From Patescibacteria group bacterium (GTDB lineage: Bacteria > Patescibacteriota > Minisyncoccia > HO2-45-28): a DNA stretch of 37,483 bases. Each line of letters starts with the position of its first letter. Position 1 is the first letter of the stretch. Below are positions 9,559-29,017 of this stretch, in pieces. A program made the position numbers and the translations under genes. The notes under the pieces were generated by a model. That model was not told the DNA's origin and ran no database searches. It saw only the letters and a program-made list of their open reading frames with translations. The stretch is taken from assembly GCA_022563755.1 (NCBI GenBank), contig JADFMT010000006.1, positions 1 to 37,483 on the forward strand. The letters run 5' to 3'.

Positions 9559-10836
9559 TTACTCGTATTCGCGCATCACGATTTGGGCTTCAATTTTTTT
9601 GATCGTCTCAAGCACAACGGAAACCACAATCAAGAGAGCGGTTCCACCGATGGTTAGCGTAATGATGCCGGTTACGGCACGCATGGCAAGCGGCAAGACC
9701 GCAATCGCGCCCAAAAAGAGCGCTCCCATCAGTGTGGTACGGCTGATAATTTTATAAAGAAACTCTGCCGTATTTTTGCCCGGCCGGATGCCGGGAATAA
9801 AGGCGCCGGATTTCTGAAGATTCGATGAGATTGATTCTGGATCAAAGGTAACGGCCGTGTAGAAATACGTAAAGAGAAATACCAACGTAAAATACAAAAT
9901 AGCATAAATCCACGGGCTATTTAAAAAATTCAAGAGCGCGCCAGATATTGTCTGCACAATCGGACTTGGAATGCCCGAGAGAAAACTAATAATCATCTGC
10001 GGGAATAATAAAATGGAGAGCGCAAAAATGATTGGGATAACGCCCGCTTGATTAACACGAAGCGGCAGGTAGGTTGACACTCCTCCGTACATCTTCATCC
10101 CCCGAATTCGGCGCGCATAGGTTACAGGCACGGGTCTTTGACCTTCGGTAATGATCACAACCCCTGCAATAATCAGTATGGCCGCAACCACAAAGCCTAA
10201 GATAATCGGTATCTGAGAAGGATCCAGTGTAAAAAAAGTGCGACTGATTGCTTGAGGGAGCGCGGCTACAATGCCTGCAAAAATTAAAACAGAGATTCCG
10301 TTCCCAATGCCATATTCTGATATAAGCTCTCCTAGCCACATCAAAAGGACCGAGCCGGCCGTGACAATCAAGACATTGATCAAGCGCTCAATCGTGGTGA
10401 GCTCCCCCAAAATGCCCTCCCTTGCAAGCAAGGTTAAAAGCCCAAATCCCTGAAGAATTGCCAAAGGAACCGTAAGAAGCCGAGAATACTGATTGAATTT
10501 TTTCCGGCCCGCCTCTCCTTCCTCGTGATACATCGCTTTAAGTCCGGGAAAAATCATCGTCAAAAGCTGCATAATAATGGAAGCCGTAATATACGGCCCC
10601 ACACCCAACATCATGATGGAAAGGTTTTCTAAAGCGCCTCCGGTAAAAATATTTAAAAGGCCAAAAAACTGATTTCCGCTGAAAAAGGCGGCGAGCCTTT
10701 CAACATTGACTCCGGGAATCGGAATCGCCGCCCCCACCCGGAAAAGAGCCAGAATACCCAAGATGAAAAGAAGCTTTTTTCGAAGATCTGGATCTCTAAA
10801 TATGAGTTTGAGTTTTCGCCAAAAATTTTGCCACAT
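9559..10836 (-). CDS. secY: Preprotein translocase subunit SecY
   Basis: Polytopic; IPIPGVN, LGVGPYITASIIMQLL, GIGNGISVLIF, NQAGVIPIIFA, GAFIPGIRPGKNTAEFL. Confidence 0.97.
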   Translation of the reverse strand: MWQNFWRKLKLIFRDPDLRKKLLFILGILALFRVGAAIPIPGVNVERLAAFFSGNQFFGLLNIFTGGALENLSIMMLGVGPYITASIIMQLLTMIFPGLKAMYHEEGEAGRKKFNQYSRLLTVPLAILQGFGLLTLLAREGILGELTTIERLINVLIVTAGSVLLMWLGELISEYGIGNGISVLIFAGIVAALPQAISRTFFTLDPSQIPIILGFVVAAILIIAGVVIITEGQRPVPVTYARRIRGMKMYGGVSTYLPLRVNQAGVIPIIFALSILLFPQMIISFLSGIPSPIVQTISGALLNFLNSPWIYAILYFTLVFLFTYFYTAVTFDPESISSNLQKSGAFIPGIRPGKNTAEFLYKIISRTTLMGALFLGAIAVLPLAMRAVTGIITLTIGGTALLIVVSVVLETIKKIEAQIVMREYE

Positions 10837-10866
10837 GCCAAATTTATATGAACGCTAGTGAATAAA
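10834..10866 (-). repeat. Start-codon-abutting repeat module, copy 1 (secY)
   Basis: catgccaaatttatatgaacgctagtgaataaa; identical over 33 nt to copy 2. Confidence 0.85.
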
Positions 10867-11289
10867 CCCTCCCGCCTTTTCAATCTTCTCTTTTGCGCCC
10901 TTGGAAACCTGACAATCTTTAATCACGAGTTTTTTTGAGATGATACCAGAGCCAAGTAGTTTTATAATGGGAGTCTTCATGCGCGTACGCTTAATTAAAC
11001 CGCGGCGCAAAAGTTCGGTAGGTGTTACGACGTCCGAATCTTTAAAATATTTATCAAGTACCTGGATATTGATCACGACTCTAGGCTGCGGTCTAACCTT
11101 CATACGATACCCCCGAAGTTTGGGGATTTTTTTTATTTGATCTCGCATGGCCGGTCGAATCTTTCTGCCGGCACGCGCTTTCTGACCCTTAATTCCACGA
11201 CCAGAATAGGTACCGCGTTTACCCCCGCGGCCGATCCTTTTTTTTCTTTTTCTTTTTGTATTAGGTCTTAGCTGGTGCAGTTGTATCAT
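10855..11289 (-). CDS. rplO: 50S ribosomal protein L15
   Basis: HQLRPNTKRKRKKRIGRGGKRGTYSGRGIKGQKARAG. Confidence 0.95.
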   Translation of the reverse strand: MIQLHQLRPNTKRKRKKRIGRGGKRGTYSGRGIKGQKARAGRKIRPAMRDQIKKIPKLRGYRMKVRPQPRVVINIQVLDKYFKDSDVVTPTELLRRGLIKRTRMKTPIIKLLGSGIISKKLVIKDCQVSKGAKEKIEKAGGFIH

Positions 11290-11764
11290 CTTTAGATTTT
11301 ATCTTTTTTAATGCCTCGATGGCCGCACGCGCGTTTGAAATTTTATTTTTCGAGTGCGAGAGAATTTTTGCGGACGCATTTCGAATACCAGCAAATTCCA
11401 AGACGACTCGTACTGAACTGCCCGCTACCAATCCATGTCCTTCCGATGCAGGCCGCATGATGACCTTCGCGCTTGAAAATTTAGCCATTACATCATGTGC
11501 AATGCTTCCTCCTTTTGTGATTGGCACGCGGATCGCGTGCTTTCGGGCTTCACGAAAAGCTTTTTGGATTGCCATAGCCGTATCCTTTCCTTTTCCAATC
11601 CCCACGCCTACTTCACCCGAACGATCCCCGACAACCAACGTTGCCCGAAAACTAAACCGGCGTCCTCCGGCAACAACTCGAGTCACTCTACGAAGATCGA
11701 TCATTTTTTGGACAAGTTCTAATCCCTCTGAGCTTAATTTTTTTTCAGGTCCTCTTCTTGCCAT
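11261..11764 (-). CDS. rpsE: 30S ribosomal protein S5
   Basis: VTRVVAGGRRFSFRATLVVGD, GVGIGKGKD, SEGHGLVAGSSVRVVLEFAGI. Confidence 0.96.
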   Translation of the reverse strand: MARRGPEKKLSSEGLELVQKMIDLRRVTRVVAGGRRFSFRATLVVGDRSGEVGVGIGKGKDTAMAIQKAFREARKHAIRVPITKGGSIAHDVMAKFSSAKVIMRPASEGHGLVAGSSVRVVLEFAGIRNASAKILSHSKNKISNARAAIEALKKIKSKDDTTAPAKT

Positions 11765-11766
11765 AA

Positions 11767-12129
11767 TTAAATCGTAAGACCGCCTTCACGTGCTCCTTCG
11801 GCCAGTGCCCGCGTTCGACCATGATACGCATATCCTCCCCGATCAAAAACAGCCTTTTTAATATTTCTGCGTTGCGCTTCTTTGGCAAGCGCGCTCCCCA
11901 GCATCCGAGATTTATCTACTTTACTTACACGCTTCCCTTTTGGTATCTTAATCACGCCGTCAGACATACCAACGAGCGTGCGACCCGAGAGATCATCAAT
12001 TAATTGAGCAATCACATGTTTATTTGAACGATAAACCGAAAGACGCGGACGGTCCGGCGTACCGCTTATTTGACTGCGCACTCGTTTATGCCTCCGGGCT
12101 CTTTTATTTATTTTTTGTTTTGTGTCCAT
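11767..12129 (-). CDS. rplR: 50S ribosomal protein L18
   Basis: RRHKRVRSQISGTPDRPRLSVYRSNKHVIAQLIDD, AVFDRGGYAYHGR. Confidence 0.96.
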   Translation of the reverse strand: MDTKQKINKRARRHKRVRSQISGTPDRPRLSVYRSNKHVIAQLIDDLSGRTLVGMSDGVIKIPKGKRVSKVDKSRMLGSALAKEAQRRNIKKAVFDRGGYAYHGRTRALAEGAREGGLTI

Positions 12130-12139
12130 ATAAAAAAAT

Positions 12140-12682
12140 CTATCCGGCGGTTGCCACTCTCTTGCCGGCCTTTCTTCTAATTACCTCTCCTACGTAACGT
12201 ATGCCCTTTCCTTTGTAGGGCTCGGGTTTTCGGACCTGACGGATGCGCGCTGCTTCATTACCCACGATCTCTTTGTTTGTTCCCGAGACTGTAATGACGT
12301 TTTTCTCAGCCTTGAACTCGGCCCCTTCCGCCGGATGAATGGTTACCGGGTGTGAAAATCCTACATGAAGCACCAAGGATTGATCACGAACCTCGACCCG
12401 ATATCCAATTCCTTCAATTGCGAGTTTCTTTTCAAATCCCCTTGTTACCCCCTCGATCATATTACGCAGGTGACTTGTATAGGTACCCGAGAGCGCGCCA
12501 CTGTATTTGGTTTCGCGTACAATCTTAACCAGGGCCTCAGAAGAAGAAATCTCAAATGTAATATCATGAGGTACCGAACGACTAAGCTCTCCCCTTGGTC
12601 CTTTAACCAAAAGAGCATGGTCCCGAAGCTCTACCATAACTCCTTCGGGTATCGCTATTGGTTTTTTTGCTAAACGGCTCAT
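12140..12682 (-). CDS. rplF: 50S ribosomal protein L6
   Basis: MSRLAKKPIAIPEGV, VKGPRGELSR, IEGIGYRV, RKPEPYKGKGIRYVGEVIRRKAGK. Confidence 0.97.
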   Translation of the reverse strand: MSRLAKKPIAIPEGVMVELRDHALLVKGPRGELSRSVPHDITFEISSSEALVKIVRETKYSGALSGTYTSHLRNMIEGVTRGFEKKLAIEGIGYRVEVRDQSLVLHVGFSHPVTIHPAEGAEFKAEKNVITVSGTNKEIVGNEAARIRQVRKPEPYKGKGIRYVGEVIRRKAGKRVATAG

Positions 12683-12736
12683 GCCAAATTTATATGAACG
12701 CTAGTGAATAAATAAATTTAATCATTTTTTGGGCAA
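12680..12736 (-). repeat. Start-codon-abutting repeat module, copy 2 (rplF), long form
   Basis: Minus strand ttgcccaaaaaatgattaaatttatttattcactagcgttcatataaatttggcATG. Confidence 0.85.
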
Positions 12737-12740
12737 CTCC

Positions 12741-13133
12741 TTAATAAACTTCTCCTAAAATCTCTCCCCCTACTTTTAATTTACGTGCCTGTGTCCCGTC
12801 CATGATGCCTTTCGATGTTGAGACGATATAACATCCATAACCTTTTTTAGAAAGCCTTATATCTTTATAGCTTCTGTAGAGACGCCGAGAGGGCTTTGAA
12901 ATACGTTTCAGGTCAGTAATTTTCCCTTTTTTTGAGGCATCGTAATACAGTGCGAGCTCAATCATGCGCCGATTTTTCTTGCCCCGGCGAATAACCTCCC
13001 TCACAAAACCACGATTTTGCAGAAGTCGAGCGATCTCCATTTTTATTTTTGAATGCGGCACCAAAACTACCTGAAGCTTTGCCATCTGGGCATTTTTAAT
13101 ACGGCTAAACATGTCTGCAATGGGATCGGTCAT
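12741..13133 (-). CDS. rpsH: 30S ribosomal protein S8
   Basis: MTDPIADMFSRIKNAQ, VSTSKGIMDGTQARK; start set to internal Met. Confidence 0.96.
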   Translation of the reverse strand: MTDPIADMFSRIKNAQMAKLQVVLVPHSKIKMEIARLLQNRGFVREVIRRGKKNRRMIELALYYDASKKGKITDLKRISKPSRRLYRSYKDIRLSKKGYGCYIVSTSKGIMDGTQARKLKVGGEILGEVY

Positions 13134-13134
13134 A

Positions 13135-13320
13135 TTACCAGCTACTTTTACGAATTCCAGGTATAGCTCCCTCATTTGCGAGCTCCCGAAAACAAATTCG
13201 ACACAAATCAAAATCCCTCATATATCCCCTTCCTCTTCCACACCGAAAACACCTACGTACGACGCGCGACTTGTACTTTGGTTTTTTTTTGGACCTAGCA
13301 ATGGTTGAGGTTTTTGCCAT
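13135..13320 (-). CDS. rpsN: 30S ribosomal protein S14, zinc-binding (type Z)
   Basis: [26 protein letters not shown] with CxxC...CxxC. Confidence 0.95.
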
Positions 13321-13324
13321 AGAT

Positions 13325-13858
13325 TTATCTCTTAAATGGTATCCCAAATGCCTTTAGTAACGCTACTGCTTCTTCCCGGGACCGAGCTTGGGTAACTAAT
13401 GTAACCTCAAGTCCAAAATGGGTCTTGATATCTTCGTCAATCATTTCTGGAAATACCATATGCTCCTTAAAGCCCAGTGTCAAGTTCCCTGAGGCGTCAA
13501 CGGAGTTGGGATCAATGCCGCGAAAATCTCGCACGCGAGGAATCACAATCATGATAAGACGCTCTAAAAAATCATACATTCGACGTGCCCGAAGCGTAAC
13601 TCCAAAACCAATCACCATTCCTTCTCGACTTTTAAAAGTAGCAATGGATTTTCTGGCTTTACGGGGGACAACTTTCTGTCCTACGATCAACTCAAGGTCC
13701 TTTTGAATCATTTCTTTTTCTTTCTCGTCCCTGCGCCCTACTCCCGTATTGATTGCAATTTTCAGAACTTTTGGCACTTCTAAATCATTTAGAGAATCCA
13801 ATTCTTTTTTTAACTGGGGAATGATTGTATTTTTGTATTTTTTCATTAACTCGCTCAT
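13325..13858 (-). CDS. rplE: 50S ribosomal protein L5
   Basis: [32 protein letters not shown]-like core, [18 protein letters not shown]. Confidence 0.96.
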
Positions 13859-14172
13859 TGAATCTCTGCGCTACATTTTCGACACACTCGAATTTTTTTT
13901 TCCCCCGCCATCAAGCGTCCTGTCCGCTGGGGTTTCTTGCAGAATGGGCAAATAAGCATCACATTCGAAAGATGAATAGGAAAAGCCACCTGCACAACCT
14001 GCCCTTTCTCTCCTTGTTTCTTCGCTCTACGATGACGCTTCCGGATATTTACACCCTCAACTAAAACCTTATCTTCTTTGGGAAAAACGTCGAGCACTTT
14101 ACCGTTTTTGCCCCGATCTTTTCCGGATAAGACGCGCACCGTATCTCCTTTTTTAATAAAACGTATGGGCAT
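13855..14172 (-). CDS. rplX: 50S ribosomal protein L24
   Basis: IKKGDTVRVLSGKDRGKNGKVLDVFPKEDKVLVEGVNIRKRH. Confidence 0.96.
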   Translation of the reverse strand: MPIRFIKKGDTVRVLSGKDRGKNGKVLDVFPKEDKVLVEGVNIRKRHRRAKKQGEKGQVVQVAFPIHLSNVMLICPFCKKPQRTGRLMAGEKKIRVCRKCSAEIQ

Positions 14173-14173
14173 A

Positions 14174-14539
14174 CTAGACTATTTCTGGGGCTTGCGAAAT
14201 TAGCTTCGTAAAACCCCGCTCTCGCAATTCTCTGGGGATGGGTCCGAAAATACGCCCTCCTTTTGGCTCTTTCCCATCCACAATCACCGCTGCATTATCG
14301 TCAAAGCGAATATAGGAACCATCCCTGCGCCGATAGGGCTGGCGTTGACGTACAATTACGGCACGCACAACATCTTTCTTCTTTACTTCCTTTCGCGGCT
14401 CAGCCTTTTTAACCGATGCTGTAATCACATCCCCAATCCGGGCGTAACGCCGCCTGGATCCTCCTAAGACCTTAATGCACTGAATAAGTTTTGCGCCGGA
14501 ATTATCGGCTACCCGTAATAAAGATTGGTTCTGGATCAT
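14174..14539 (-). CDS. rplN: 50S ribosomal protein L14
   Basis: [62 protein letters not shown]. Confidence 0.97.
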
Positions 14540-14541
14540 AA

Positions 14542-14781
14542 CTACATTTTCTTTACTACCCTCCACCGTTTCGTCTTAGAAATCGGGGCGGCGGCTTCAA
14601 TAATAACGTCTTCTCCTTTTTTATACTGATTTTCTTCGTCATGAACATGATACTTTTTCGATCGTTTAAGATATTTCTTGTAGAGCGGGTGCTTGATATA
14701 GCGCATGCATTTTACCACAATGGTTTTATCCATTGCATCGGAGACAACCTTCCCTTTTAATTTTTGTTTAACAATACTCAT
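14542..14781 (-). CDS. rpsQ: 30S ribosomal protein S17
   Basis: [42 protein letters not shown]. Confidence 0.95.
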
Positions 14782-14963
14782 GTCGCTTGGCGGAACCGGG
14801 TTAAAATTCTTGCAATGTTACGTTTGATAAACATCCCCCCTTTAACATTCTTTGTCTTCCCCTGACTAAGTTTGAAACGAAAACTACGCAATTTCTCTCT
14901 TTCGTTCTCTAAGAGTTTTTCCAGTTCCTTTTTATCTTTTTGCCCTACAATATCTTTTTTCAT
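14778..14963 (-). CDS. rpmC: 50S ribosomal protein L29
   Basis: [26 protein letters not shown]; position between S17 and L16. Confidence 0.92.
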
Positions 14964-15373
14964 CGACTCAAAATCTTTGTCTTAATGCCTAATTTACTGG
15001 AAGCTTTTCTCAAGGCCTCTTTCGACAACTCCTCACTGATACCGTCAATCTCAAACATAATCCGGCCTGCTTTAACAACCGCAAAATATCCTACCGGATC
15101 TCCTTTCCCTTTACCCATTCCTACCTCTGGTGGTTTTGAAGTCTTAGGCCGGTCCGGAAAAATGCGGATCCACATTTTGCCTCCTTTTTGAAGATAGCGC
15201 GATATTACTTTTCGGGCTGCTTCGATTTGCTGGGCTGAAATTTCTCTCCCTTCCTGTGCTTTGAGTCCAAAGGATCCAAAGGAAAGCTTTATGGCACGGC
15301 TTTCAATCCCTCGTTCACTCCCGCGAAGCCTCTGCCATTTTCGATGTTTAACTTTTTTAGGGAATAAAATCAT
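14960..15373 (-). CDS. rplP: 50S ribosomal protein L16
   Basis: MILFPKKVKHRKWQRLRG, GKMWIRIFPDRPKTSKPPEVGMGKGKGDP. Confidence 0.96.
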   Translation of the reverse strand: MILFPKKVKHRKWQRLRGSERGIESRAIKLSFGSFGLKAQEGREISAQQIEAARKVISRYLQKGGKMWIRIFPDRPKTSKPPEVGMGKGKGDPVGYFAVVKAGRIMFEIDGISEELSKEALRKASSKLGIKTKILSR

Positions 15374-16023
15374 TTTTCAAATATCTCTCCCTTATAAATC
15401 CAGACTTTAATCCCAATATCCCCGTACGGAAGATGTGCGCGCTCGCGTGCAAAATCAATATCTGCCCGAATCGTCTGTAAAGGAATCCGCCCCTCCATCA
15501 ACCATTCCCGCCGGCCCATATCGGTGCCCCCCAATCTGCCCGAGAGTGCAATCTTCACTCCCTTAACTTCTTTATGTGCGGCCACCTTGCTAATAGCTTG
15601 CTTAAGCACTCTGCGAAACGGCAGGCGTTTCTCAAGACCTTCGGCAACCATTTTTGCGACAATGACCGCATCCGTCTCCGGGCTTTTTACCTCTTCAATC
15701 GAAAGCTTAAGTTCGGACGGCTTGAACAGTGCGAATTTTTTAATCCGTTTCTCAACTTGATTTTTGAGTGACGTAACCCCCGCGCCCGATCGCCCAATAA
15801 TAAGCCCGGGGCGCGAGGTATGAATAATGATATGAAAAAGCGTGGGTGAGCGTTCAATGTCAATTTTGGACACATACATACTCGCAAGATGCACCGTTAA
15901 CCATTCACGCAGCTGAACATCGGCTTTTAAAAATTCTCGGTAATGACGACGATCAAACCAGCGCGATCTCCAATCACGAATTTGTCCCAATCGAAACGCA
16001 TAGGGATGAACTTGGTGGGTCAT
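15370..16023 (-). CDS. rpsC: 30S ribosomal protein S3
   Basis: THQVHPYAFRLG, RPGLIIGRSGAGVTSLK (KH), GVKIALSGRLGGTDMGRREW, LPYGDIGIKVWI. Confidence 0.96.
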   Translation of the reverse strand: MTHQVHPYAFRLGQIRDWRSRWFDRRHYREFLKADVQLREWLTVHLASMYVSKIDIERSPTLFHIIIHTSRPGLIIGRSGAGVTSLKNQVEKRIKKFALFKPSELKLSIEEVKSPETDAVIVAKMVAEGLEKRLPFRRVLKQAISKVAAHKEVKGVKIALSGRLGGTDMGRREWLMEGRIPLQTIRADIDFARERAHLPYGDIGIKVWIYKGEIFEK

Positions 16024-16373
16024 GGTTTTATATTTTTATCTTTACGCTCATCCAGTTCAACCGAAACATGACTGGTTTTTTTTCTAATCATATGTGCTGT
16101 TCCGCGCCACTTGGATCGATATCGCTTAAACACGGGGCCTTCATTAACCGTAATTGCAGAGATATAAAGATCATTCTCTGCTTTATCAAAATTATGCTTT
16201 GCATTGGCAATAGCAGATGCTAAAAGTTTTGCAAGATGTTTTGCGGACTTTTTCTTAGAAAACGCTAATGCCGCCTTCGCTTGACGCATGGGTTTACGAC
16301 GAATCAAATCCGCAACGATACGAACTTTTCTGGGTGCAATATGTAAATAATTTAATTGGGCTTTAATCTTCAT
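16020..16373 (-). CDS. rplV: 50S ribosomal protein L22
   Basis: LNYLHIAPRKVRIVADLIRRK, VNEGPVFKRYRSKWRGTAHMIRKKTSHVSVEL. Confidence 0.95.
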   Translation of the reverse strand: MKIKAQLNYLHIAPRKVRIVADLIRRKPMRQAKAALAFSKKKSAKHLAKLLASAIANAKHNFDKAENDLYISAITVNEGPVFKRYRSKWRGTAHMIRKKTSHVSVELDERKDKNIKP

Positions 16374-16387
16374 GTCATTAAAAAACG

Positions 16388-16699
16388 CTAAGCGCCTTCT
16401 CCCTTCGCTGTGGTGGCGGCTTTCTGTTCAAGTTCACGCTGCATCTTTCCGCCGTGGCGGACGAATTTACGGGTGGGGGAAAACTCCCCTAACCGATATC
16501 CCACCATGTCCTCAGTTATCATTACCGGAATAAAATCTTTCCCGTTATGCACCCCGAAGGTAAAACCGATCATCTCAGGACTAATTTGGGAGTTGCGCGA
16601 CCAGGTTTTAATAACCGTTTTTGAACCACGCTCTAAGCGGCTAATTTTTTTTAATAATTTTGGATCTACATAGGGACCCTTTTTTGCGGATCTGGTCAT
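16388..16699 (-). CDS. rpsS: 30S ribosomal protein S19
   Basis: [66 protein letters not shown]. Confidence 0.97.
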
Positions 16700-16700
16700 G

Positions 16701-17549
16701 CTATTTTTTCTTACGCTTTTTACGTCTTGTGATGATCAACGCATTCGAATATTTATGGCGTTTTCTTGTCTTCACTCCCCGGACTCCTTTGCCCCATCGA
16801 TTTTTCGGGCGCCTGGTGCCGCGAGGCTGTTTCCCTTCCCCTCCCCCGTAAGGATGATCAACCGGGTTCATTGCCGATCCCCGTACCGTAGGCCTGATTC
16901 CCATCCGGCGAGACCGGCCGGCTTTGCCAATTGTGACAAACCCATGTTCTTCATTTGAAACCGAGCCAATACTTGCCCACGCGTTTTTATGAATGGATCG
17001 GACTTCTGAGGACGGCATCTTAAGCTGAGTATAGTTATCTTCTTGGGCAAGTACCTCTGCTCGAGCAGCTGCAGCTCTTACCAGCTTTGCTCCGCCTCCT
17101 ACCTGAACCTCGATATTATAAACCGAAGACCCAACCGGAATCAAGCGAAGGGGACGCCGATTCCCGGGTTTTAACGGAGCTTTCTCGGAAGCAACAATCT
17201 CATCTCCCGCCTTCACACCCGCAGGCATAAGGTGATAACGATACTCACCGTCTTTATAAAGCACTAACCCGATGAAACCCGAGCGATTCGGATCGTATTC
17301 AATGCTGATCACGGTTGCCGGTATATCGTGCTTGTTGTATCTGAAATCAATATCCCGATAAAGTCGTTTCTCGCCAGATCCTTTGTGCCTGGTCGTAATA
17401 CGGCCTTTACGATTGCGGCCTACCGAGCGATGCCGCCCGTAAGTCAAACTTTTTTTAGGTCCGCCGGTTGGCGAACGGGTTAAAAGCGCCCGATAATCAA
17501 TCACTTGCATATGACGACGGGATGGAGTTGTGGGTTTATACTTTTTCAT
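16701..17549 (-). CDS. rplB: 50S ribosomal protein L2
   Basis: [49 protein letters not shown]. Confidence 0.97.
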
Positions 17550-18016
17550 ACAAATTCAATCTTCTGCCCCTTTTTTAAAGTAATAATCGCTTTTTTATAT
17601 CCGGGACGCCTTCCAATGATTCGACCTAAACGACGCTTACGCGATGGAATATAAATGATGCCTACTTTCTCCACATTTACTTTATAGAGTTCTTCTACGG
17701 CTTGGCGCAAAACCTGCTTGGTTGCCCTTGGAGATACTCGAAAACTATAGACTCCTCTTTCTGCAAGCCAGGATGTCTTCTCGGTAGTATGAGGTTTTAA
17801 CAAAACCACGCTAGCAGATTTAGAAAAGCCTACCTGTGTCTCTTTCGGCTTTTCCTCCCCGACGCGCTCTTTGCTCGTAGCTCCAACCCGCTCCCCCGAC
17901 GTGACGTCGGCCCTTTCGGCCATCGGGGCTTCGGCAGAAGAAACCACCTTACGGGGAAGAGATTTTTGCAGCTTCTTACGCGCTTGTTTTTTTCTAAAAA
18001 AATCCAAAAGTGTCAT
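17546..18016 (-). CDS. rplW: 50S ribosomal protein L23 with long N-terminal extension
   Basis: LLKPHTTEKTSWLAERGVYSFRVSPRATKQVLRQAVEELYKVNVEKVG; about 65 aa of low-complexity charged sequence precedes the L23 core. Confidence 0.93.
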   Translation of the reverse strand: MTLLDFFRKKQARKKLQKSLPRKVVSSAEAPMAERADVTSGERVGATSKERVGEEKPKETQVGFSKSASVVLLKPHTTEKTSWLAERGVYSFRVSPRATKQVLRQAVEELYKVNVEKVGIIYIPSRKRRLGRIIGRRPGYKKAIITLKKGQKIEFV

Positions 18017-18657: not shown

Positions 18658-18658
18658 G

Positions 18659-19279
18659 TTACGATTGCTTTTTGATCTCAATAAGCGTTCCTCGTCTTCC
18701 AGGAATCGCCCCTGAAATTGCAAGAATGTTTTTTGCCCGGTCGGATTTTATAATTTTAAGGTTTTTTAATGTTACGCGATCACCTCCCATTCGTCCTGGC
18801 ATCTTTTTTCCTTTAAAGACTCGCTGTGGGCCCGTTGCTCCGATCGATCCGGCTTCACGCTCTGAGTGCTTCTGGCCGTGAGTTCGAGGACCACCGTGAA
18901 AACCGTGACGCTTTACCACTCCCTGAAACCCCTTTCCCTTTGAGCACGCACTTACCGTAATCTTGTCTCCCTCTTTAAAAACGCTCACATCTATACTATC
19001 TCCCACATGAAAATCTTCAGGATTTGAAACCCGAAACTCTTTTAACCATCGCAGACTCTCTTGCTTAGCTTTTTTCATGTGTCCTCGCTGGGGTTTTAGG
19101 ATCGATCTTTGACTCTTCTGGCCAAACCCAAGCTGAACGGCGTTATATCCGTCTTTATCTACAGTTTTTACCTGCACGACTACCACAGGTCCGGCTTCAA
19201 CCAACGTTACGGGCGTCACATCGCCCGACTGGCTAAAAACCTGCGACATCTCTATTTTTTTTCCAAGAATAAATGCCAT
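18659..19279 (-). CDS. rplC: 50S ribosomal protein L3
   Basis: FILGKKIEMSQVF, GKGFQGVVKRHGFHGGPRTHGQKHSEREAGSIGATGPQRVFKGKKMPGRMG. Confidence 0.97.
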   Translation of the reverse strand: MAFILGKKIEMSQVFSQSGDVTPVTLVEAGPVVVVQVKTVDKDGYNAVQLGFGQKSQRSILKPQRGHMKKAKQESLRWLKEFRVSNPEDFHVGDSIDVSVFKEGDKITVSACSKGKGFQGVVKRHGFHGGPRTHGQKHSEREAGSIGATGPQRVFKGKKMPGRMGGDRVTLKNLKIIKSDRAKNILAISGAIPGRRGTLIEIKKQS

Positions 19280-19295
19280 ATACTCGATTACCTAA

Positions 19296-19324
19296 AACAA
19301 AATCGGGCACGGCCCGATTTTGTT
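19296..19324 (-). terminator. Hairpin in the rpsJ-rplC intergenic region (terminator/attenuator-like)
   Basis: aacaaaatcgggc-acg-gcccgattttgtt, perfect 13-bp stem; minus strand continues TTAGG. Confidence 0.6.
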
Positions 19325-19351
19325 CGCATGTGCCTTGGTAATGTCTCTACC

Positions 19352-19702
19352 TTAAATCATTTTTACCTCAATGTCCACCCCGGCTGGCAGATTAAGATTG
19401 GTTAATGCGTCAATGATTTTCGAATTCGGATTTAAAATATCGATCAATCTTTTGTGAATGCGCATTTCGAATTGTTCCCGGGAATTTTTGTGAACAAAAG
19501 TTGAACGATTTACCGTGTATTTACGAATCTCAGTTGGAAGCGGTACGGGCCCGGTAATCTCTGCCCCGTATCGAAGTGCGGTATCGACAATCTGCTTAAC
19601 GCTTGCGTCAAGAATTTTGTGATCATACCCACGCACACGGATACGCAGTTTCTGATGTTCCTCGGTTTTAGCTTTCGAGGGTTTTTTTACCGTTTTAACC
19701 AC
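19352..19702 (-). CDS. rpsJ: 30S ribosomal protein S10
   Basis: [64 protein letters not shown]. Confidence 0.97.
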
Positions 19703-19736
19703 AGCGATAGATAGCTACTTGCTACTAAGGTATTTG

Positions 19737-20930
19737 CTATTTGTTAATTTTAGTTACCACACCCGCACCCACGGTCTTTCCTCCTTCCCGAATTGCAAAG
19801 CGCTGTTTTTCCTCAAGCGCTACGGGTACGATCAGCTTAACGCTAAAGCTAATCGTATCGCCGGGCATGACCATCTCGGTTCCCTTCGGCAGCGTGACGT
19901 CCCCGGTTACATCAGTGGTTCTAAGATAAAACTGCGGTTTGTATCCAGTGAAAAAAGGCGTATGACGACCTCCTTCTTCTTTGGTCAAAATATATACTTC
20001 AGCATCAAACTCCGTATGAGGAGAAACCGAGCCGGGCTGGGCAAGAACCTGACCACGCTCTACATCTTCTTTTTTAAGACCGCGAAGCAAAATTCCCGCA
20101 TTATCCCCCGCAAGTCCTTCGTCTAAAGACTTGTTGAACATTTCAATGCCGGTCACAATACTTTTTGTGGTATCACGCATGCCCACGATCTCAATCTCGC
20201 CGCCTACCTTAATTTTCCCTCGCTCAATCCTGCCGGTCACTACCGTTCCCCGGCCCTCAATAGAGAAAATGTCCTCAATCGGCATTAAAAAGGGTTTTTC
20301 AATTTCCCGAACCGGTTCCGGGATATGTTCGTCCAGTGCTTTGGTAAGCTCTAAAATACCTTTTACCCATTCATCATTTACATCTTTAGCTTCTAGAGCT
20401 TTCAGGGCCGAGCCACGAATGATCGGAATTTTCTCGCCCGGATATTCGTATTTAGTCAAAAGTTCTCGAATTTCTACCTCTACCAAGTCCACTAATTCTT
20501 TATCGTCAACCGCATCCACCTTGTTGAGAAACACAATAATCGCAGGCACTCCGACTTGCCGGGCGAGAAGTATATGTTCCCGGGTTTGCGGCATGGGGCC
20601 ATCTACGGCCGAAACCACAAGCACGGCTCCATCCATTTGTGCAGCGCCGGTAATCATATTTTTGATGTAATCGGCGTGTCCCGGAGCATCAATGTGAGCG
20701 TAATGGCGTTTTTCAGTCTCGTATTCAGAATGATGCAGGGCAATCGTAATGCCCCGCTGACGTTCCTCGGGAGCTTTGTCGATATCCTCAACTTTCTCCA
20801 GCCTCACCTTTTGCCCGCTCAAATCCAGAGAATGCAAAATTGCAGCCGTTAAAGTGGTTTTACCATGATCCACGTGGCCAATCGTGCCCACATTAACATG
20901 AGGCTTTGTGCGTTCAAACTTTTCTGCCAT
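19737..20930 (-). CDS. tuf: Elongation factor Tu
   Basis: [62 protein letters not shown]. Confidence 0.98.
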
Positions 20931-21015
20931 AAATTATGTTTAAAAACTAAACCTTAAACTATTAAACTCGTAAACTCTATTTTATAATATACCACTCACT
21001 CCGTCAAGTCCACAA

Positions 21016-21044
21016 TTGCGACCTGTGATGCAGCGGGGTATACT
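21016..21044 (+). promoter_or_regulatory. trpS promoter candidate
   Basis: TTGCGA-N17-TATACT, -10 ends 10 nt before ATG 21055. Confidence 0.6.
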
Positions 21045-21054
21045 AAAAATTATC

Positions 21055-22059
21055 ATGCCCAAACAAAGAGTATTTAGCGGTATACAACCTTCTGGTAACC
21101 TCCACATCGGAAACTATCTGGGGGCAATACGACAATTTGTTGACCTTCAAAAAACCCATGAGGCGATTTATTGCATTGTTGACGAACATGCAATTACCGT
21201 TCCTCAAAATCCAAAAGAGCTCAGTGAAAATACCCTCAGTACCGCTACAATGTATCTTGCGGCAGGACTGGATCCAAAAAAATCAATCATTTTTGTTCAG
21301 TCCCACGTTCCTGCGCATACCGAGCTCGGGTGGATTTTAAACACGATCACACCAATGGGGGAACTCGAGCGAATGACACAATTTAAGGAGAAAACAAAAA
21401 ATGGGAAGAAAAAAACCGGGATTCTTGCAGGACTCTTCAACTACCCCACTTTGATGGCAGCCGATATCTTGCTCTATAAACCCAATCTGGTGCCGGTTGG
21501 CGAGGATCAGGTTCAGCATGTGGAATTCACCCGCATGATTGCGAATAAATTTAACCGCAGCTACGGCAATACATTTATAATCCCTCAACCGCTAATACAA
21601 AAAGAAGTGGCTCGGATTATGGGGTTGGATGATCCTGCAAAAAAAATGTCAAAATCAGCTCCGAGCCCCAACAACTACATAGCGCTTCTTGACTCTCCCG
21701 AAAAGATTCAGAGAAAAATTAAAATTGCAGTAACCGATTCAGGCAAAGAAGTTCGTTTTGACAAAGTAAAAAAACCTGCGATCTCAAATCTAATAACCAT
21801 CTACAGCGCGTTCTCCGGTCTTTCAATATCAGATATTGAGAAACGATATCACAAGAAAGGATACAGAGAGTTTAAAGAAGAGCTGGGAGAATTATTGGTA
21901 GAAAAACTAGAGCCCCTGCAAAAGAAATACCACGATCTTTCTCGTAAAAAGGAACACGTTCTTGCAATCTTGCGCGACGGCGCCGGGCGCGCACGACCCA
22001 TCGCCCAAAAAACTCTTCATGATGCAAAAACCAAAATCGGGCTTGTAGAGTTAAAGTAA
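21055..22059 (+). CDS. trpS: Tryptophanyl-tRNA synthetase
   Basis: VFSGIQPSGNLHIGNYLGAI (HIGN), KKMSKS; start at internal ATG 21055. Confidence 0.96.
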   Translation: MPKQRVFSGIQPSGNLHIGNYLGAIRQFVDLQKTHEAIYCIVDEHAITVPQNPKELSENTLSTATMYLAAGLDPKKSIIFVQSHVPAHTELGWILNTITPMGELERMTQFKEKTKNGKKKTGILAGLFNYPTLMAADILLYKPNLVPVGEDQVQHVEFTRMIANKFNRSYGNTFIIPQPLIQKEVARIMGLDDPAKKMSKSAPSPNNYIALLDSPEKIQRKIKIAVTDSGKEVRFDKVKKPAISNLITIYSAFSGLSISDIEKRYHKKGYREFKEELGELLVEKLEPLQKKYHDLSRKKEHVLAILRDGAGRARPIAQKTLHDAKTKIGLVELK

Positions 22060-22092
22060 AATACGGCTCAACCGTTGTTGAGCCGTATTTTA
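22057..22092. terminator. Bidirectional terminator between convergent trpS and the wHTH gene
   Basis: taaaatacggctcaac-cgtt-gttgagccgtatttta, perfect 16-bp inverted repeat. Confidence 0.85.
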
Positions 22093-22407
22093 GTCCGAAA
22101 GTTCGTAATAGCTTCCTTTGGCCACGCCTTTTTGCACGATTTTTCTTTCCTTTTCTAGCTCATCCAGATACCGCGTCGCTGTCGCATCAGACACACCAAC
22201 CAGCTCTTGCACCTCATCGTTCGTGATGCGGCCCTTCTCGCGCAACACCACAAGAATTTTTTCTTTTCTCTTCTCCTTCCTCCGCTTTTGCAGTCCAATT
22301 CGTTCCCGCAAACCCCTCGGAAGCCCACTCTCACCTATCGCGAGCCAAACAAGAAAACCGCCAACCACAACACCAAAAAGAAAAATAAGTAATGAGTTCA
22401 AGGACAT
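22090..22407 (-). CDS. Membrane-anchored winged-helix DNA-binding protein (DeoR-like HTH)
   Basis: One N-terminal TM segment, basic linker, then KILVVLREKGRITNDEVQELVGVSDATATRYLDELEKERKIVQKG. Confidence 0.7.
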   Translation of the reverse strand: MSLNSLLIFLFGVVVGGFLVWLAIGESGLPRGLRERIGLQKRRKEKRKEKILVVLREKGRITNDEVQELVGVSDATATRYLDELEKERKIVQKGVAKGSYYELSD

Positions 22408-22412
22408 AATTA

Positions 22413-22769
22413 TTATTTAAGAACTTCCTTTTCTTTGTCCATGAATAATGAGATTAATTTGTCTTGCTCTTTTTCATACAAATCCTTTTTCCCGTAAATT
22501 TGAATGTCGCCTCCTATAGATGGAACATATAATCTATACGGACCGACCCATTTTTCTTTATATTCTGGGTTCTTATTGCGAAGATGTTTACTTATATCCT
22601 TAATTTGATTTGTATCTAAAACCATCCATGCCTCAGGATGGTTTTTAAAATATCTATATGCTTCTTCTGGGTTACGACCAACCAATTTCCAAAATTTATA
22701 CTTGCCTACACGCAAGGTAAAAAATAAGTACAAACCAAGTCCTATAAAAAATAATATAATCCATTCCAT
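22413..22769 (-). CDS. Hypothetical protein with N-terminal TM segment
   Basis: 118 aa ORF, MEWIILFFIGLGLYLFFTL anchor. Confidence 0.6.
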   Translation of the reverse strand: MEWIILFFIGLGLYLFFTLRVGKYKFWKLVGRNPEEAYRYFKNHPEAWMVLDTNQIKDISKHLRNKNPEYKEKWVGPYRLYVPSIGGDIQIYGKKDLYEKEQDKLISLFMDKEKEVLK

Positions 22770-22801
22770 AGATTTATTTTTCTATTTTTTTGGCAAAAAC
22801 A

Positions 22802-23404
22802 CTATAATGGTGGTTTTGTTATCGTTATTCGTCCATTGGTTGTCGGGGCAACCTCGAATTCCATAGTTATTGGCTTCGGACTTTTCTTTAGTCTTTCATA
22901 AGAAAGAAAAGCTCGATAGTTATTTTCATTGAGAATTCCCAGCCCCGTGCGGATAGTTTGATTTTGTGCACAATAAGCCTGCCCCAGATTGACCCGTCGT
23001 CGTGCTTCATAAACTTCCCTGTTGTTATTAAACTTTTCTATCTCCATATTTATATTGAATGCCGGCGAGTTACCTATATTCTTTAAAAGCCATTCCCACT
23101 CACCGCGTTCATTGGTTTTTTCAAAAATTAAAACTGGGAGAATGCTCAATACATTCTGCATTGTCATTTCGGTTCTTGATCGTTCAGTGGTCTCATTTTG
23201 ATGCCTGATTAACTCCGCTAGCCGCATTGTTTCCCAACTGTACCAAAAGATAAAAACTGCGGTGGCAAGCAACATGCCTACTTCAATGGACAATCCTGCA
23301 ATTTGTTTAAATCCGAAAAATAATAGCGCTGCACCAATAACAAAAAAGAATGGCGCCTTGAGCGATTGCCGACAACCCCACAATTTTTTTGGTAGCAAAG
23401 TCAT
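22802..23404 (-). CDS. Hypothetical membrane protein (two TM segments plus soluble C-terminal domain)
   Basis: 200 aa ORF, two hydrophobic stretches in residues ~18-58. Confidence 0.6.
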   Translation of the reverse strand: MTLLPKKLWGCRQSLKAPFFFVIGAALLFFGFKQIAGLSIEVGMLLATAVFIFWYSWETMRLAELIRHQNETTERSRTEMTMQNVLSILPVLIFEKTNERGEWEWLLKNIGNSPAFNINMEIEKFNNNREVYEARRRVNLGQAYCAQNQTIRTGLGILNENNYRAFLSYERLKKSPKPITMEFEVAPTTNGRITITKPPL

Positions 23405-23489
23405 AAATATTCAGCTTCGAAAAAATTATAATAATGTCCAAATTTTACAAAAATCTCGGCGAAAATCAAGCTCCAAAGCCAAAAATTAA

Positions 23490-23513
23490 ACGGCTCAACC
23501 ATGGTTGAGCCGT
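23490..23513. repeat. Palindrome sharing its arms with the trpS terminator
   Basis: acggctcaac-catg-gttgagccgt, perfect. Confidence 0.8.
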
Positions 23514-23564
23514 ATACTCCCAAACCTATGACACTTTTTATATTTCATGCCACTGCCACATGGA

Positions 23565-24017
23565 TTAGCTGACACCGATAAATGGATTCTCGTCTTGCAA
23601 AAATCGATCTATGTTTTCCCAGAAAGTATTTTGAAGTCGTTTAGGAAAAACTTTGGCGTTTTCAAGTTCGCCCCGAGAAAACCATTTCGCCGCCTCCACT
23701 TTCCCATCAACATCGCGATCTATATGTAGTTCGTTCAATTCCGTTTCTCTGGTTGGTTTCGCTAACCAAATAGTTTCAAACGATATAGAGTCTGGTGCTT
23801 CATGAAATTCTTGAACATACAATAATCTTATTACCTTTACTTCCAGTCCCGTCTCCTCCGCTACCTCGCGCTCTGCGCATGTAACTACATCCTCCTTATC
23901 ATAATCCCATTCTCCCCCGGGTGGATACCAAAAGTCCTGATCACGAGTCTTTACCAGTAATACTTTCTTACTCCCTTGATCATACGTTATTACTCTTGTT
24001 ACAAGTCGAATTTTCAT
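23565..24017 (-). CDS. NUDIX hydrolase
   Basis: PPGGEWDYDKEDVVTCAEREVAEETGLEV, a near-canonical Nudix box. Confidence 0.9.
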   Translation of the reverse strand: MKIRLVTRVITYDQGSKKVLLVKTRDQDFWYPPGGEWDYDKEDVVTCAEREVAEETGLEVKVIRLLYVQEFHEAPDSISFETIWLAKPTRETELNELHIDRDVDGKVEAAKWFSRGELENAKVFPKRLQNTFWENIDRFLQDENPFIGVS

Positions 24018-24036
24018 AGATAGATATATTGAATGC

Positions 24037-25398
24037 CTATTTAATTTTTGAACTCAGTTCTTTAATTTTTTCTTCCATTAGCTCTTGGGCATTAGCTTCA
24101 ATGACTAAACGCACGAATGATTCGGTTTTTGAGATACGAATATTAAACCACCAGCCTGAATACTCAACCGTTAATCCGTCGAGAAATGATTGTTTGCCAT
24201 CAGAATAATCTTTTTTAAAGCGTTCAATAACGGCCTCTCGATCTTCCACTTCAAAATTGAGTTCGCTGGAATGAAAATATTCTTGATAAGGTTTTAGTAG
24301 TTCAGAGAATGGTTTATCGCTTCTTGAAAGAAAAGTAAGAATATAAACCAGCATTAAAAGCGAGGAATCCGAGAAGAAAAAATCTTGAAAATAATAGTGA
24401 CCGGAAAGCTCACCTGCAAACCGTGCATTTTTCTCACGCATGGCCGCTTTAATATTCGAGTGTCCCACCAAAACTTTCTCGATCTTTGCATTCTTTTTCT
24501 TCGCAATATCAAAAAGAATTTTTGAGCCTAACACCGTCGTTAATACTAAATCTCCAGGCTCAAGCATATTGTCCAACAAAAACGCGTAAATGAAATTGCC
24601 CGAAACCGCATCACCTCGCTCATCAATAAAAATAATGCGATCGCCATCCGCGTCCAGAATAAAACCGAGGTCCGCACCAGTCTCCATTACTTTTTCTTTT
24701 GCAAATTTTTGAGCCTCGGCCAGAACAGGGTTGGGCGAATGGTTGGGAAAACGGCCATCGGGCTCAAAAAAAAGCTCATGCGCTTTCGTGTCCAATCGTT
24801 TAAGTAAATTCCTCGCCAGTGGACCGCCAGACCCGTTACTGGCATCAGCAACCACGATGAGCGGTCTTTTTATATCGGCTTCTCTTGCTAAAAAATCTAA
24901 ATATCTTCCGCTAAAATCCTCCGTGTGCAAAGAACCGATGTTTATTTTGCGCGCAAATTCATGCGCTGCGAGTTTTTCAATAACAGGCAAACCTGCTTTT
25001 TTGTAAATAGATATTCCACCCTCTCGCATCAACTTTATTCCGTTAAATTCGGGCGGATTGTGAGAGGCGGTAATCATGGCGCCTCCCGCTGCCTTTGAGG
25101 TATTGACACTAAAATAAAAAAGCGGAGTGGTAGCAAGACCGATATCAACAACATCTCTTCCTTGATCCTGAATGCCACGGCCAAACGCTTCGGCGAGCGC
25201 CGGAGAGGACAGGCGGGCATCATGGCCTAAAATAATCGTTCCAAAATGTTTGCTGCGACTTAAATACTCGCAAAAAGCAACCGCAATACGATACACGATC
25301 TCTTCGTCTATCTCGCCCGGATACTGACCGCGGATATCGTATTCTTTAAAAATAGAAGGGTTTATCCTGAGATCACTCGAGGGATTGATTTCTATCAC
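24037..25398 (-). CDS. Phosphomannomutase/phosphoglucomutase
   Basis: FKEYDIRGQYPGEI, MITASHNPPEFNGIK, DADGDR, GELSGHYYF; GTG start. Confidence 0.93.
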   Translation of the reverse strand: MIEINPSSDLRINPSIFKEYDIRGQYPGEIDEEIVYRIAVAFCEYLSRSKHFGTIILGHDARLSSPALAEAFGRGIQDQGRDVVDIGLATTPLFYFSVNTSKAAGGAMITASHNPPEFNGIKLMREGGISIYKKAGLPVIEKLAAHEFARKINIGSLHTEDFSGRYLDFLAREADIKRPLIVVADASNGSGGPLARNLLKRLDTKAHELFFEPDGRFPNHSPNPVLAEAQKFAKEKVMETGADLGFILDADGDRIIFIDERGDAVSGNFIYAFLLDNMLEPGDLVLTTVLGSKILFDIAKKKNAKIEKVLVGHSNIKAAMREKNARFAGELSGHYYFQDFFFSDSSLLMLVYILTFLSRSDKPFSELLKPYQEYFHSSELNFEVEDREAVIERFKKDYSDGKQSFLDGLTVEYSGWWFNIRISKTESFVRLVIEANAQELMEEKIKELSSKIK

Positions 25399-25420
25399 CT
25401 TTTAAGTTTACCATCTATAC

Positions 25421-26338
25421 ATGACGATACGAATCGGCATCGTGGGGCTCCCAAATGTTGGTAAATCAACGCTTTTTCAAGCGCTCACCAATATTCCCGT
25501 TGATACATCCAATTATCCTTTCTGTACGATTGACCCCAATATCGGAATCAAACCGGTGAACGACGAACGCTTAGAAAAAATTGCGGAGGTTTGCGGTTCG
25601 AAAAACATTATTCCGGACGCTCTTGAATTTATTGATATCGCGGGGCTCGTGAAAAATGCTCATCAAGGAGCTGGGCTTGGCAATCAATTTCTGTCGCATA
25701 TCTACGGTGTAGATTGTATGGTAATGGTTGTTCGTACATTTGAAGACGAAAACATACCTCATGTTCTTGAAACTATTGACCCCGAGCGAGATATCGCGAT
25801 CATCACCGAAGAACTCGTCAAAAAAGACGAAGAGATTGAGGAAAGAAAAAAAGAGAAACAGAAACACGAAACGCAATCGGGGGCGGAGCAAAAATTATCT
25901 AAAAAACCGGTCGTATATATTTTTAATTCTAAAAATGCTTATAAAAACACTTCCCATTCCCCGTCCATAACCGTTGATATCAAGCTTGAAGACGACCTCA
26001 CGCACCTACCTCCTCAAGAACAAAAAGAATTCCGCATAAACTCGTCTCTGGATGATCTCAACGCCCTACTCGTAAAAACCCTTAATCTGATTACATTTTT
26101 TACGGCAAACAAAAACGAGGCAAGAAGCCATTTAGTCCCGCTCGAGACTACGACGCATGAGGCGGCCGAAAAAGTTCATAGCGATTTTCAAGAAAAATTT
26201 ATCCGGGCAGAGATTGTGCGCTACTCCGATCTTATGCGATCCGGCGGGACGTATGAAGCCAGAAAAATGGGCCTTGTAAAAACCGAGGGCCGCGACTATC
26301 CGCTTGAGGACGGCGATCTTATTGAGTTTAAAATATGA
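25421..26338 (+). CDS. ychF: YchF/OLA1-family P-loop NTPase (shortened coiled coil, altered G4)
   Basis: GLPNVGKSTLFQALT, YPFCTIDPN, DIAGLVKNAHQGAGLGNQFL, TGS domain FTANKNEARSHLVPLETT...RDYPLEDGDLIEFKI. Confidence 0.92.
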   Translation: MTIRIGIVGLPNVGKSTLFQALTNIPVDTSNYPFCTIDPNIGIKPVNDERLEKIAEVCGSKNIIPDALEFIDIAGLVKNAHQGAGLGNQFLSHIYGVDCMVMVVRTFEDENIPHVLETIDPERDIAIITEELVKKDEEIEERKKEKQKHETQSGAEQKLSKKPVVYIFNSKNAYKNTSHSPSITVDIKLEDDLTHLPPQEQKEFRINSSLDDLNALLVKTLNLITFFTANKNEARSHLVPLETTTHEAAEKVHSDFQEKFIRAEIVRYSDLMRSGGTYEARKMGLVKTEGRDYPLEDGDLIEFKI

Positions 26339-26376
26339 CCCTTGTAAGCTTGTAAGACCGTATCGCGCGATATTGC

Positions 26377-26405
26377 TTTACAGAACGTGTGTGGTAGGCT
26401 ATAGG
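26377..26405 (+). promoter_or_regulatory. rpsF promoter candidate
   Basis: TTTACA-N17-TATAGG, -10 ends 5 nt before ATG 26411. Confidence 0.55.
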
Positions 26406-26410
26406 CACCC

Positions 26411-26824
26411 ATGATGCAAGAGAGTAAACCAATCTTATACGAGATTTCCTATTTCCTGCAAGCAATAAGCCCCGAGGAATCGGCGGGGAAAACGAATCTT
26501 GTAAGTGATATGATTGAAAAAGAACATGGCGTGATTGCCTCGCAAATTCAACCTGTCCTAAAACCCTTGAGCTACCCGATTCAAAAGAAAACGGAAGCTT
26601 ATTGGGGATGGCTAAAATTTATGGCAAAGCCTGAGGTGGTGACATCGATTAAAGAAAACCTCAAAGCCCGACCAGAAATACTGCGCTTTATGCTTGTAAG
26701 GGCAAAAAAAGAAGAACTTATAGAGCAGCCCTTGCGCAAACGTAGACGACCCGTTGCCTCTCCGGAAAAGCAAGCTAAAATTGAGGAAATTGATAAAAAA
26801 TTAGAGGAAATTTTGGGTGAATAA
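26411..26824 (+). CDS. rpsF: 30S ribosomal protein S6
   Basis: YEISYFLQA..., LKPLSYPIQKKTEAYWGWLKFMAKPE, ILRFMLVRAKKEE; upstream of ssb-rpsR. Confidence 0.88.
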   Translation: MMQESKPILYEISYFLQAISPEESAGKTNLVSDMIEKEHGVIASQIQPVLKPLSYPIQKKTEAYWGWLKFMAKPEVVTSIKENLKARPEILRFMLVRAKKEELIEQPLRKRRRPVASPEKQAKIEEIDKKLEEILGE

Positions 26825-26829
26825 AGAAA

Positions 26830-26884
26830 TTGCCCAAAAAATGATCAAATTTTTATTCACTAGCGTTCGTATAAATTTGTCATG
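26830..26884 (+). repeat. Start-codon-abutting repeat module, copy 3 (ssb), long form
   Basis: ttgcccaaaaaatgatcaaatttttattcactagcgttcgtataaatttgtcATG. Confidence 0.85.
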
Positions 26885-28540: not shown

Positions 28541-28672
28541 GCCAATTTTTAAAAATTTTAGAGTGATAACGAATAAAATTTTGGTTAAAATTGAGCACCC
28601 GCCCTGGGCGGGTAAAGGTTTGCCTACCAAAAATCATTCGCCTTGCGGCTCCAATTTTTGAGCAAATTCACT

Positions 28673-29017
28673 TTATTCTGGTAATTTTACCATGATAGTC
28701 CGGAGTTCTACTATCTGGCGCCCAAATCGGCCATCTGCCTTTAGCTCAATCATATTCAAACCCGGTGCTAAAATCAACCGCTCTTCAAAAAATCCATTTT
28801 CGTCTGTATAAATCGGGCGTCCGTTCAACTCAAGCCGGGTTGCTCGAAAACCCTCCCCTACAACGAGCACGTGGGTATTGGATAAAAATTCGCCCTCAGC
28901 GGGTGAGGTAATCGTAATTTGTGGGCCCTGCAAAATATATTGCATCCGCACCCCAAAATACACTAAAAAAACAAGAAAAAGTAGAGCGAAAATGCTATTC
29001 ATTGCAAGCCTTGTCAT
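28673..29017 (-). CDS. Single-TM protein with an Ig-like/glucodextranase-B-like extracytoplasmic domain
   Basis: N-terminal TM; ITITSPAEGEFLSNTHVLVVGEGFRATRLELNGRPIYTDENGFFEERLILAPGLNMIELKA. Confidence 0.65.
   Translation of the reverse strand: MTRLAMNSIFALLFLVFLVYFGVRMQYILQGPQITITSPAEGEFLSNTHVLVVGEGFRATRLELNGRPIYTDENGFFEERLILAPGLNMIELKADGRFGRQIVELRTIMVKLPE

Follow-up and report, generated by a model that had tools for sequence, protein, structure and literature searches.

The window analysed here is the 37,483-nt contig JADFMT010000006.1 of a Patescibacteria group bacterium (assembly GCA_022563755.1), in which a 33-mer is repeated directly before the start codons of secY, rplF and ssb. This 33-mer belongs to the hairpin (P3) that closes the 3' end of a larger mobile palindromic element, which in its full-length form comprises two further stem-loops, P1 and P2, upstream of P3. 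The element is to be grouped with the dispersed palindromes, such as the repetitive extragenic palindromes (REP), the miniature inverted-repeat transposable elements (MITE) and the Rickettsia palindromic elements (RPE). We consider it probable that the copies belong to a family of mobile palindromic elements of the host's class that is linked to a GIY-YIG nuclease, includes deletion derivatives, and is tolerated at stop-start junctions through the fold of its RNA.

Architecture and folding of the element

The full-length form can be written as UAAGGGCUU-P1-AAACCUUA / CCC-P2-GGG / UGCUCAA-P3-UUGGCA-UG, where the ends of P1 read UAAGG-P1-CCUUA. Full-length copies measure 125-350 nt and consist of three abutting stem-loops nearly without linkers. 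From P3 the conserved sequence reaches 100-300 nt upstream as the two other stem-loops and ends at the previous stop codon. Many copies have another conserved block upstream, AAACCTT(T)ACCC, which follows TAA(A)GGGCTT....

Folds were predicted for 49 distinct full-length copies. In 39 of these the minimum free energy (MFE) fold shows three closed domains and no more than 4 unpaired linker nucleotides in all (none in 35 copies), and the median z-score of the 49 folds is -6.8. Sequence comparison between copies shows compensatory changes that preserve each of the three stems. For P3, an alignment made from sequence only gave 94.2% standard pairs, as against 14-45% with the partner slid. Five pairs are altered on both sides, none of 500 shuffles reached the observed covariation score, and the paired changes across genomes include CAAATTT/AAATTTG, CAATTTT/AAAATTG and GAATTTT/AAAATTC. 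From these paired changes and the covariation it follows that the 33-mer is the loop together with the right arm of the stem, and that its TATAAA lies within the right arm. The outer 10 bp of P2 pair at 0.95 within a copy versus 0.57 between copies (20 distinct arm sequences), and for P1 there are 8 or more compensated variants, e.g. UUUGU/ACAAA, UUGGC/GCCAA, UUUCU/AGAAA and UUGAC/GUCAA. By eye, P1 looks like an inverted P3, the hairpins being found in inverted pairs.

Position between stop and start codons

In 32 of the 49 full-length copies the 5' base of the element falls on the stop codon of an upstream open reading frame (ORF) of at least 60 codons and the 3' base on the ATG of the following gene, and at gene starts the element is found in one orientation only. 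The 5' end, UAAGG, includes a Shine-Dalgarno-like AAGG, while the 3' end reads ...UUGGC-AUG; AAGG, AGGG or AGGA is present within the first 12 nt of 36 of the 49 copies. The genes downstream code for many ribosomal proteins, NusA, and secretion and housekeeping functions.

A position test free of ASCERTAINMENT bias was carried out using the P1-P2 junction alone as the query, which is blind to both P3 and the ATG (286 genomes; 67 matches read in context). A gene start of the (T)TGGCATG type followed in 33 of 45 loci having the P1 arm, a proportion that does not stem from a random sample because the contexts were taken partly from genomes with multiple matches, and in none of the 22 loci lacking the arm. 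The contrast between the two groups is clear.

Two elements in genome G075 (L206 and L184) end before a terminator-like hairpin and not at a gene start, and one copy in another genome (L180; G218:C6:2870-2920) lies directly before the DnaA-box-like TTATCCACAG, possibly near a replication origin. Many genes of the host genome (rplR, rpsE, rpsC and others) have no Shine-Dalgarno-like sequence before the start, and a minority have AGGAG.

A GIY-YIG nuclease between the arms of P2

Six elements from six genomes (G142, G160, G074, G025, G113 and G071) carry a GIY-YIG ORF between the arms of P2. The ORF has the same direction as the element and is followed by P3 and the next ATG (2 nt further in G113). 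Pfam confirms GIY-YIG in G142, G160, G071 and G113 (E-values from 2e-9 to 1.5e-17), and genome-wide matches to PF01541 coincide with all six ORFs. The G025 copy is interrupted by a stop codon and the G113 copy is without a clear in-frame ATG. Shorter elements with identical P2 arms and no ORF are present in G071, G074 and G025, and these match the expectation for deletion derivatives. Inverted repeats of the form CCC..GGG and of at least 12 bp also flank 8 of 43 further GIY-YIG ORFs versus 3 of 221 other ORFs, two of these three being GIY-YIG ORFs missed by the motif that was used.

Copies in the window

The window holds four members of the family, listed below together with the three stems of the full-length one.

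10834..10866, minus strand: secY copy, a truncated P3 (loop and right arm); its 5' part forms the last rplO codons and stop (TAG, 10857-10855) and its 3' end abuts the secY ATG (10836-10834).
12680..12743, minus strand: rplF copy, a deletion derivative with the P3 interior intact, with the rpsH stop (TAA, 12743-12741) and the rplF ATG (12682-12680) as its exact ends.
26822..26884, plus strand: ssb copy, the same derivative as the rplF copy with the P3 left arm 2 nt shorter, starting at the rpsF stop (TAA, 26822-26824) and ending at the ssb ATG (26882-26884).
28538..28675, minus strand: recA element, full-length with three hairpins, the TAA of the upstream gene at its 5' base and the recA ATG at its 3' base; MFE -37.2 kcal/mol, with P1, P2 and P3 as closed domains.
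28613..28675, minus strand: P1 of the recA element, a TAAAGTGAATTTGC...GGCAAACCTTTA stem-loop with the inner motif GGAGCC..GGCGAA (from the fold; the motif recurs in other genomes).
28598..28612, minus strand: P2 of the recA element, CCCGCC/GGCGGG, minimal and internally deleted (from the fold).
28538..28597, minus strand: P3 of the recA element and the ATG, TGCTCAATTTTAACC-AAAATTTTA-TTCGTTATCACTC-TAAAATTTT-TAAAAATTGGCATG.

An initial annotation, made from the letters of the window, had described the repeat as three copies of a module of 33-55 bp. Much of that description holds. The 30-mer is found exactly at 10837-10866 (-) and 12683-12712 (-), i.e. the secY and rplF copies are identical as described, and with the 2 mismatches claimed for ssb at 26852-26881 (+); the expectation by chance for such matches is 0.00 (100 dinucleotide shuffles). 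Strands and abutment to the ATG agree as well, the rplF and ssb copies do have the extension TTGCCCAAAAAATGATYAAATTT in common, and Pfam returns the genes that had been named, i.e. SecY, L15 (rplO), L6, S8, SSB, S6 and RecA. The rplO stop was correctly placed within the module of the secY copy: rplO ends here in EKAGG-FIH-stop and in relatives in EKAGG-SVSA or EKAGG-SIVQNA, a comparison of C-termini that supports the proposed overwriting of the gene end.

The size of the unit has to be revised to about 125-350 nt for the full form, the rplF, ssb and secY copies of the window being shortened derivatives. Most of P1 and P2 is lost from the rplF and ssb copies, which have retained the span from stop to start; of the secY copy a P3 fragment alone remains, in place of the rplO end. 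The recA site, which had been credited with a loose resemblance, is a full member whose ends are the same and whose stem is longer. The ORF upstream of it (28673-29017) contains a Glucodextran_B domain.

Copies in the host genome and in the class

A genome-wide search for the core of the 30-mer allowing 3 mismatches, as the initial annotation had suggested, gave 14 copies in the host genome (G000, 781 kb). With a sequence model and the recA element included the tally is 17 copies instead of three, and the view of the cassette as dispersed, duplicated and extremely biased towards start codons is upheld by the 16 of these 17 that end at a start codon. The 16 genes are secY, rplF, ssb, recA, pheT, lysS, frr, rplI, gspF, tatD, murG, gyrA, HU, mreB, a methyltransferase and one further ORF; names in the window were assigned via Pfam, and those elsewhere in the genome via Pfam/NCBIfam on a pooled set together with reading of the sequence. 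Before mreB and another ORF (L044 and L047; G000:C5:23717 and C37:7740) a second hairpin, CCCCGTTAGAAAC..GTTTCTAACGGGG, is nested in P3, i.e. elements insert into elements.

The full element occurs in about 10% of the genomes of the class. In 384 class genomes the pattern GGGTGCTCA-N18-48-TTGGCA gave 80 distinct sequences, as opposed to 6 matches for the reversed pattern. The interiors of the 80 sequences are mostly hairpins of very different sequence, and 51 of the 80 are fused through the ATG to an ORF. In a few copies the TTG of TTGGCA is itself the apparent start codon (rplK in G204 and rpsH in G018; by eye). Copies inside one genome have P2 and P3 sequences specific to that genome. Of the earlier suggestion that the copies had either spread or formed a co-regulated set, the spread stands; a co-regulated set is possible, but the lists of genes vary between genomes.

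No convincing match to the element was obtained outside the class (380 genomes of the phylum), and no relevant match to an Rfam family, known leaders and riboswitches included, was obtained. Viral contigs yielded 65 matches, none of which is a real element, and a viral origin was rejected on this ground. We found no paper on such an element in Patescibacteria in the open-access literature. Sedimentibacter saalensis has an intergenic 38-nt hairpin (L031 and L032) which differs by one mismatch from P3 of a Sungbacteria copy and has the same loop, without a link to a start codon; at L032 the hairpin adjoins a GIY-YIG ORF.

Occupancy and unusual insertion sites

Comparison with genomes of the same family (G001-G003) shows that the occupancy of junctions differs between related genomes. 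The rplF site is without an element in all three, the stop-start gaps at the secY site are 3, 1 and 11 nt, and the rplP site is occupied in G001 and is an ATGA overlap in G000.

Five copies were found in RNase P RNA genes, at two different sites (Rfam class A, E-values from 1e-15 to 1e-24). Among them are L072, L118, L165 and L174, of which one immediately precedes the conserved 3' end CAGAAyCCGGCTTA; the genes bearing these four score under the Rfam gathering cut-off. Derivation of the element from RNase P RNA was rejected, because its five copies there occupy two different places. In one further case (L182; G234:C32:9473-9525) the element is reversed and apparently in frame in the zinc module of dnaX, NC-ANLSKLSEGKFADKLSTRRSLGEGGFPI-PCDAC (gene identity and frame judged by eye).

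Interpretation and alternatives

In the reading that we favour, the GIY-YIG-bearing elements would be the autonomous form, and their nuclease may drive the spread by cutting and repair or by homing. The shorter copies, those of the window included, would be internal-deletion derivatives. The folded RNA would join the two ends of the element, keeping the stop codon and Shine-Dalgarno sequence adjacent to the AUG, and translation of the next cistron could rely on termination-reinitiation across the fold or on a split ribosome-binding site. The element probably persists at stop-start junctions because the fold unites its ends.

A number of points weigh against this reading. P1 pairs AAGG with CCUU, and the fold could therefore hide the Shine-Dalgarno sequence instead of presenting it; in addition, 13 of the 49 full-length copies are without AAGG, AGGG or AGGA at the 5' end. 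The rplF and ssb derivatives fold weakly, and the truncated secY copy presumably functions without any bridge. GIY-YIG genes are present in the host genome, but those inspected all lie outside elements. Mobility is read from sequence comparison, and the spacers of the empty sites are too different to define a target-site duplication. For every copy, the evidence consists of sequence and predicted folds.

We know of no REP, MITE or RPE having a stop-to-start niche, a three-domain fold or a GIY-YIG partner as a feature. More tentatively, and with somewhat less than even confidence, we propose that the family is a new class of mobile element, encoding a GIY-YIG nuclease, built of three hairpins and adapted to the stop-start niche of operons, the RNA fold of which may let ribosomes cross 100-300 inserted nucleotides with the gene pair still working.

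Because P1 itself pairs AAGG, the main rival to a bridging fold is a sequestration switch, i.e. a resident regulatory RNA leader where P1 (AAGG/CCUU) hides the Shine-Dalgarno sequence and P3 (GCA/UGC) hides the start, which would be opened by a signal (temperature, protein or upstream translation, for example) and would have been selected and copied between genes as a regulon element. In the folds the Shine-Dalgarno sequence and the AUG are base-paired, the many ribosomal, NusA, secretion and housekeeping genes downstream speak for such a role, and the same orthologues (rpsD, rpsS, rplJ, nusA, gspF, mreB) bear the element in different genomes. We nevertheless consider a leader unlikely, as its presence at the same gene varies among genomes of the same family, P2 and P3 vary freely in sequence and accept nested hairpins as well as a nuclease ORF, copies are also found in RNase P RNA and dnaX, and no conserved unpaired core resembling a ligand pocket was noticed. 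Slightly less likely again is a neutral or selfish palindrome occupying the sole non-coding bases of compact operons, where fusion to the codons would be the tightest tolerated position and the fold would have no role in translation. Operon gaps of a few bases in these genomes are in line with this, as are the sites in RNase P RNA and dnaX, those before terminator-like hairpins and the one near the DnaA-box-like sequence. Mere tolerance, however, would predict less than what is seen: most full-length copies are fused exactly at both ends, the orientation at starts is single, and three stems are maintained by compensation, though the last could serve mobility at the DNA level.

The initial annotation had also proposed a leaderless promoter, with TATAAAT as a -10 box and transcription beginning at the ATG, and most 33-mer copies in the host genome do have TATAAA 6 nt before the ATG. 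In other genomes, however, TATAAA varies (AATAAAATT, GCAAAATTGG, ACAAATTTGG etc.) while the pairing stays, the conserved structure runs 100-300 nt upstream to the preceding stop codon, and the rplF and secY copies lie within the ribosomal-protein operon; inspection by eye only, with no tool scan, revealed no conserved -35-box-like sequence at the right distance. The promoter was rejected, since TATAAA is a stem arm that is not conserved and changes together with its paired arm, and we regard it as very improbable. The same very low probability is assigned to a short upstream ORF (GUG CUC AAA UUU ... UAA) coupling translation to the main ATG. Many copies can be read as an ORF of 7-14 codons ending near the ATG, and the HU and gyrA copies come after small ORFs. 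The putative start codon, however, lies in P3 on the strand that pairs with GCAU, and a stop within the element is present in 38 of 58 copies, where 34.8 are expected from shuffled interiors, which therefore gives no sign of selection. This shuffle test and the pairing of the start codon with GCAU led us to reject the upstream ORF.

A nuclease-linked element tolerated through its fold would represent a family that has specialised in the few bases left non-coding in streamlined genomes and is joined to the stops and starts of essential genes (secY, rplF, recA, ssb, gyrA). Whether RNA folding is able to carry translation over a large insertion between cistrons could be tested on it directly, and it would provide a concrete DNA substrate for the GIY-YIG nucleases of Patescibacteria, which are small, abundant and mostly unexplained. 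For genome annotation, it would account for many odd intergenic repeats and altered gene ends (rplO, RNase P RNA).

Comparison with known systems

The element resembles the REP/REPIN system and its REP-associated tyrosine transposase (RAYT) in its hairpins, which are dispersed and form inverted pairs with a spacer, in loop and bulge motifs conserved within families, in the many copies per genome and in a nuclease-like partner. It differs in sitting stop-to-start, where REP are generally intergenic, and in its internal partner, which is GIY-YIG. No Y1/HUH (RAYT) transposase was found in G000, G026, G074 and G337, and the element is absent from all of 30 Y1 loci; identity with RAYT/REP was rejected, Y1 being absent from several element-rich genomes and not near the element.

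Rickettsia palindromic elements are known to insert in frame into a protein gene (PMC10969869). Like the present element, these and bacterial MITEs are palindromes that spread, with a size of about 100-150 bp, and the present element has one apparent in-frame insertion into a protein gene (dnaX in G234, by eye). The stop-start niche, the three domains, the nuclease-bearing versions and the different phylum set it apart. A MITE would share terminal inverted repeats with an autonomous element; here, shorter copies share their P2 arms with GIY-YIG-bearing elements of the same genome (G071, G074, G025), but the terminal repeats are imperfect.

Group I introns having a GIY-YIG homing endonuclease ORF in peripheral loops are also structured RNAs with such an ORF in a loop, tolerated through the fold. 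No Rfam intron match was obtained at E<=1 or E<=0.5, and unlike an intron the element gives no indication of being spliced; the dnaX frame apparently continues through it.

For translation, the closest likeness is the split ribosome-binding site of T4 genes 38 and 25, in which RNA structure cuts the distance between the Shine-Dalgarno sequence and the AUG from 22 nt to 5 and from 27 nt to 11, respectively (PMC3014915). A structure between Shine-Dalgarno sequence and AUG is likewise predicted in the element, which differs in its size of 50-350 nt, its three stems, its dispersal and its mobility, and for which a role in translation is suggested by this analogy.

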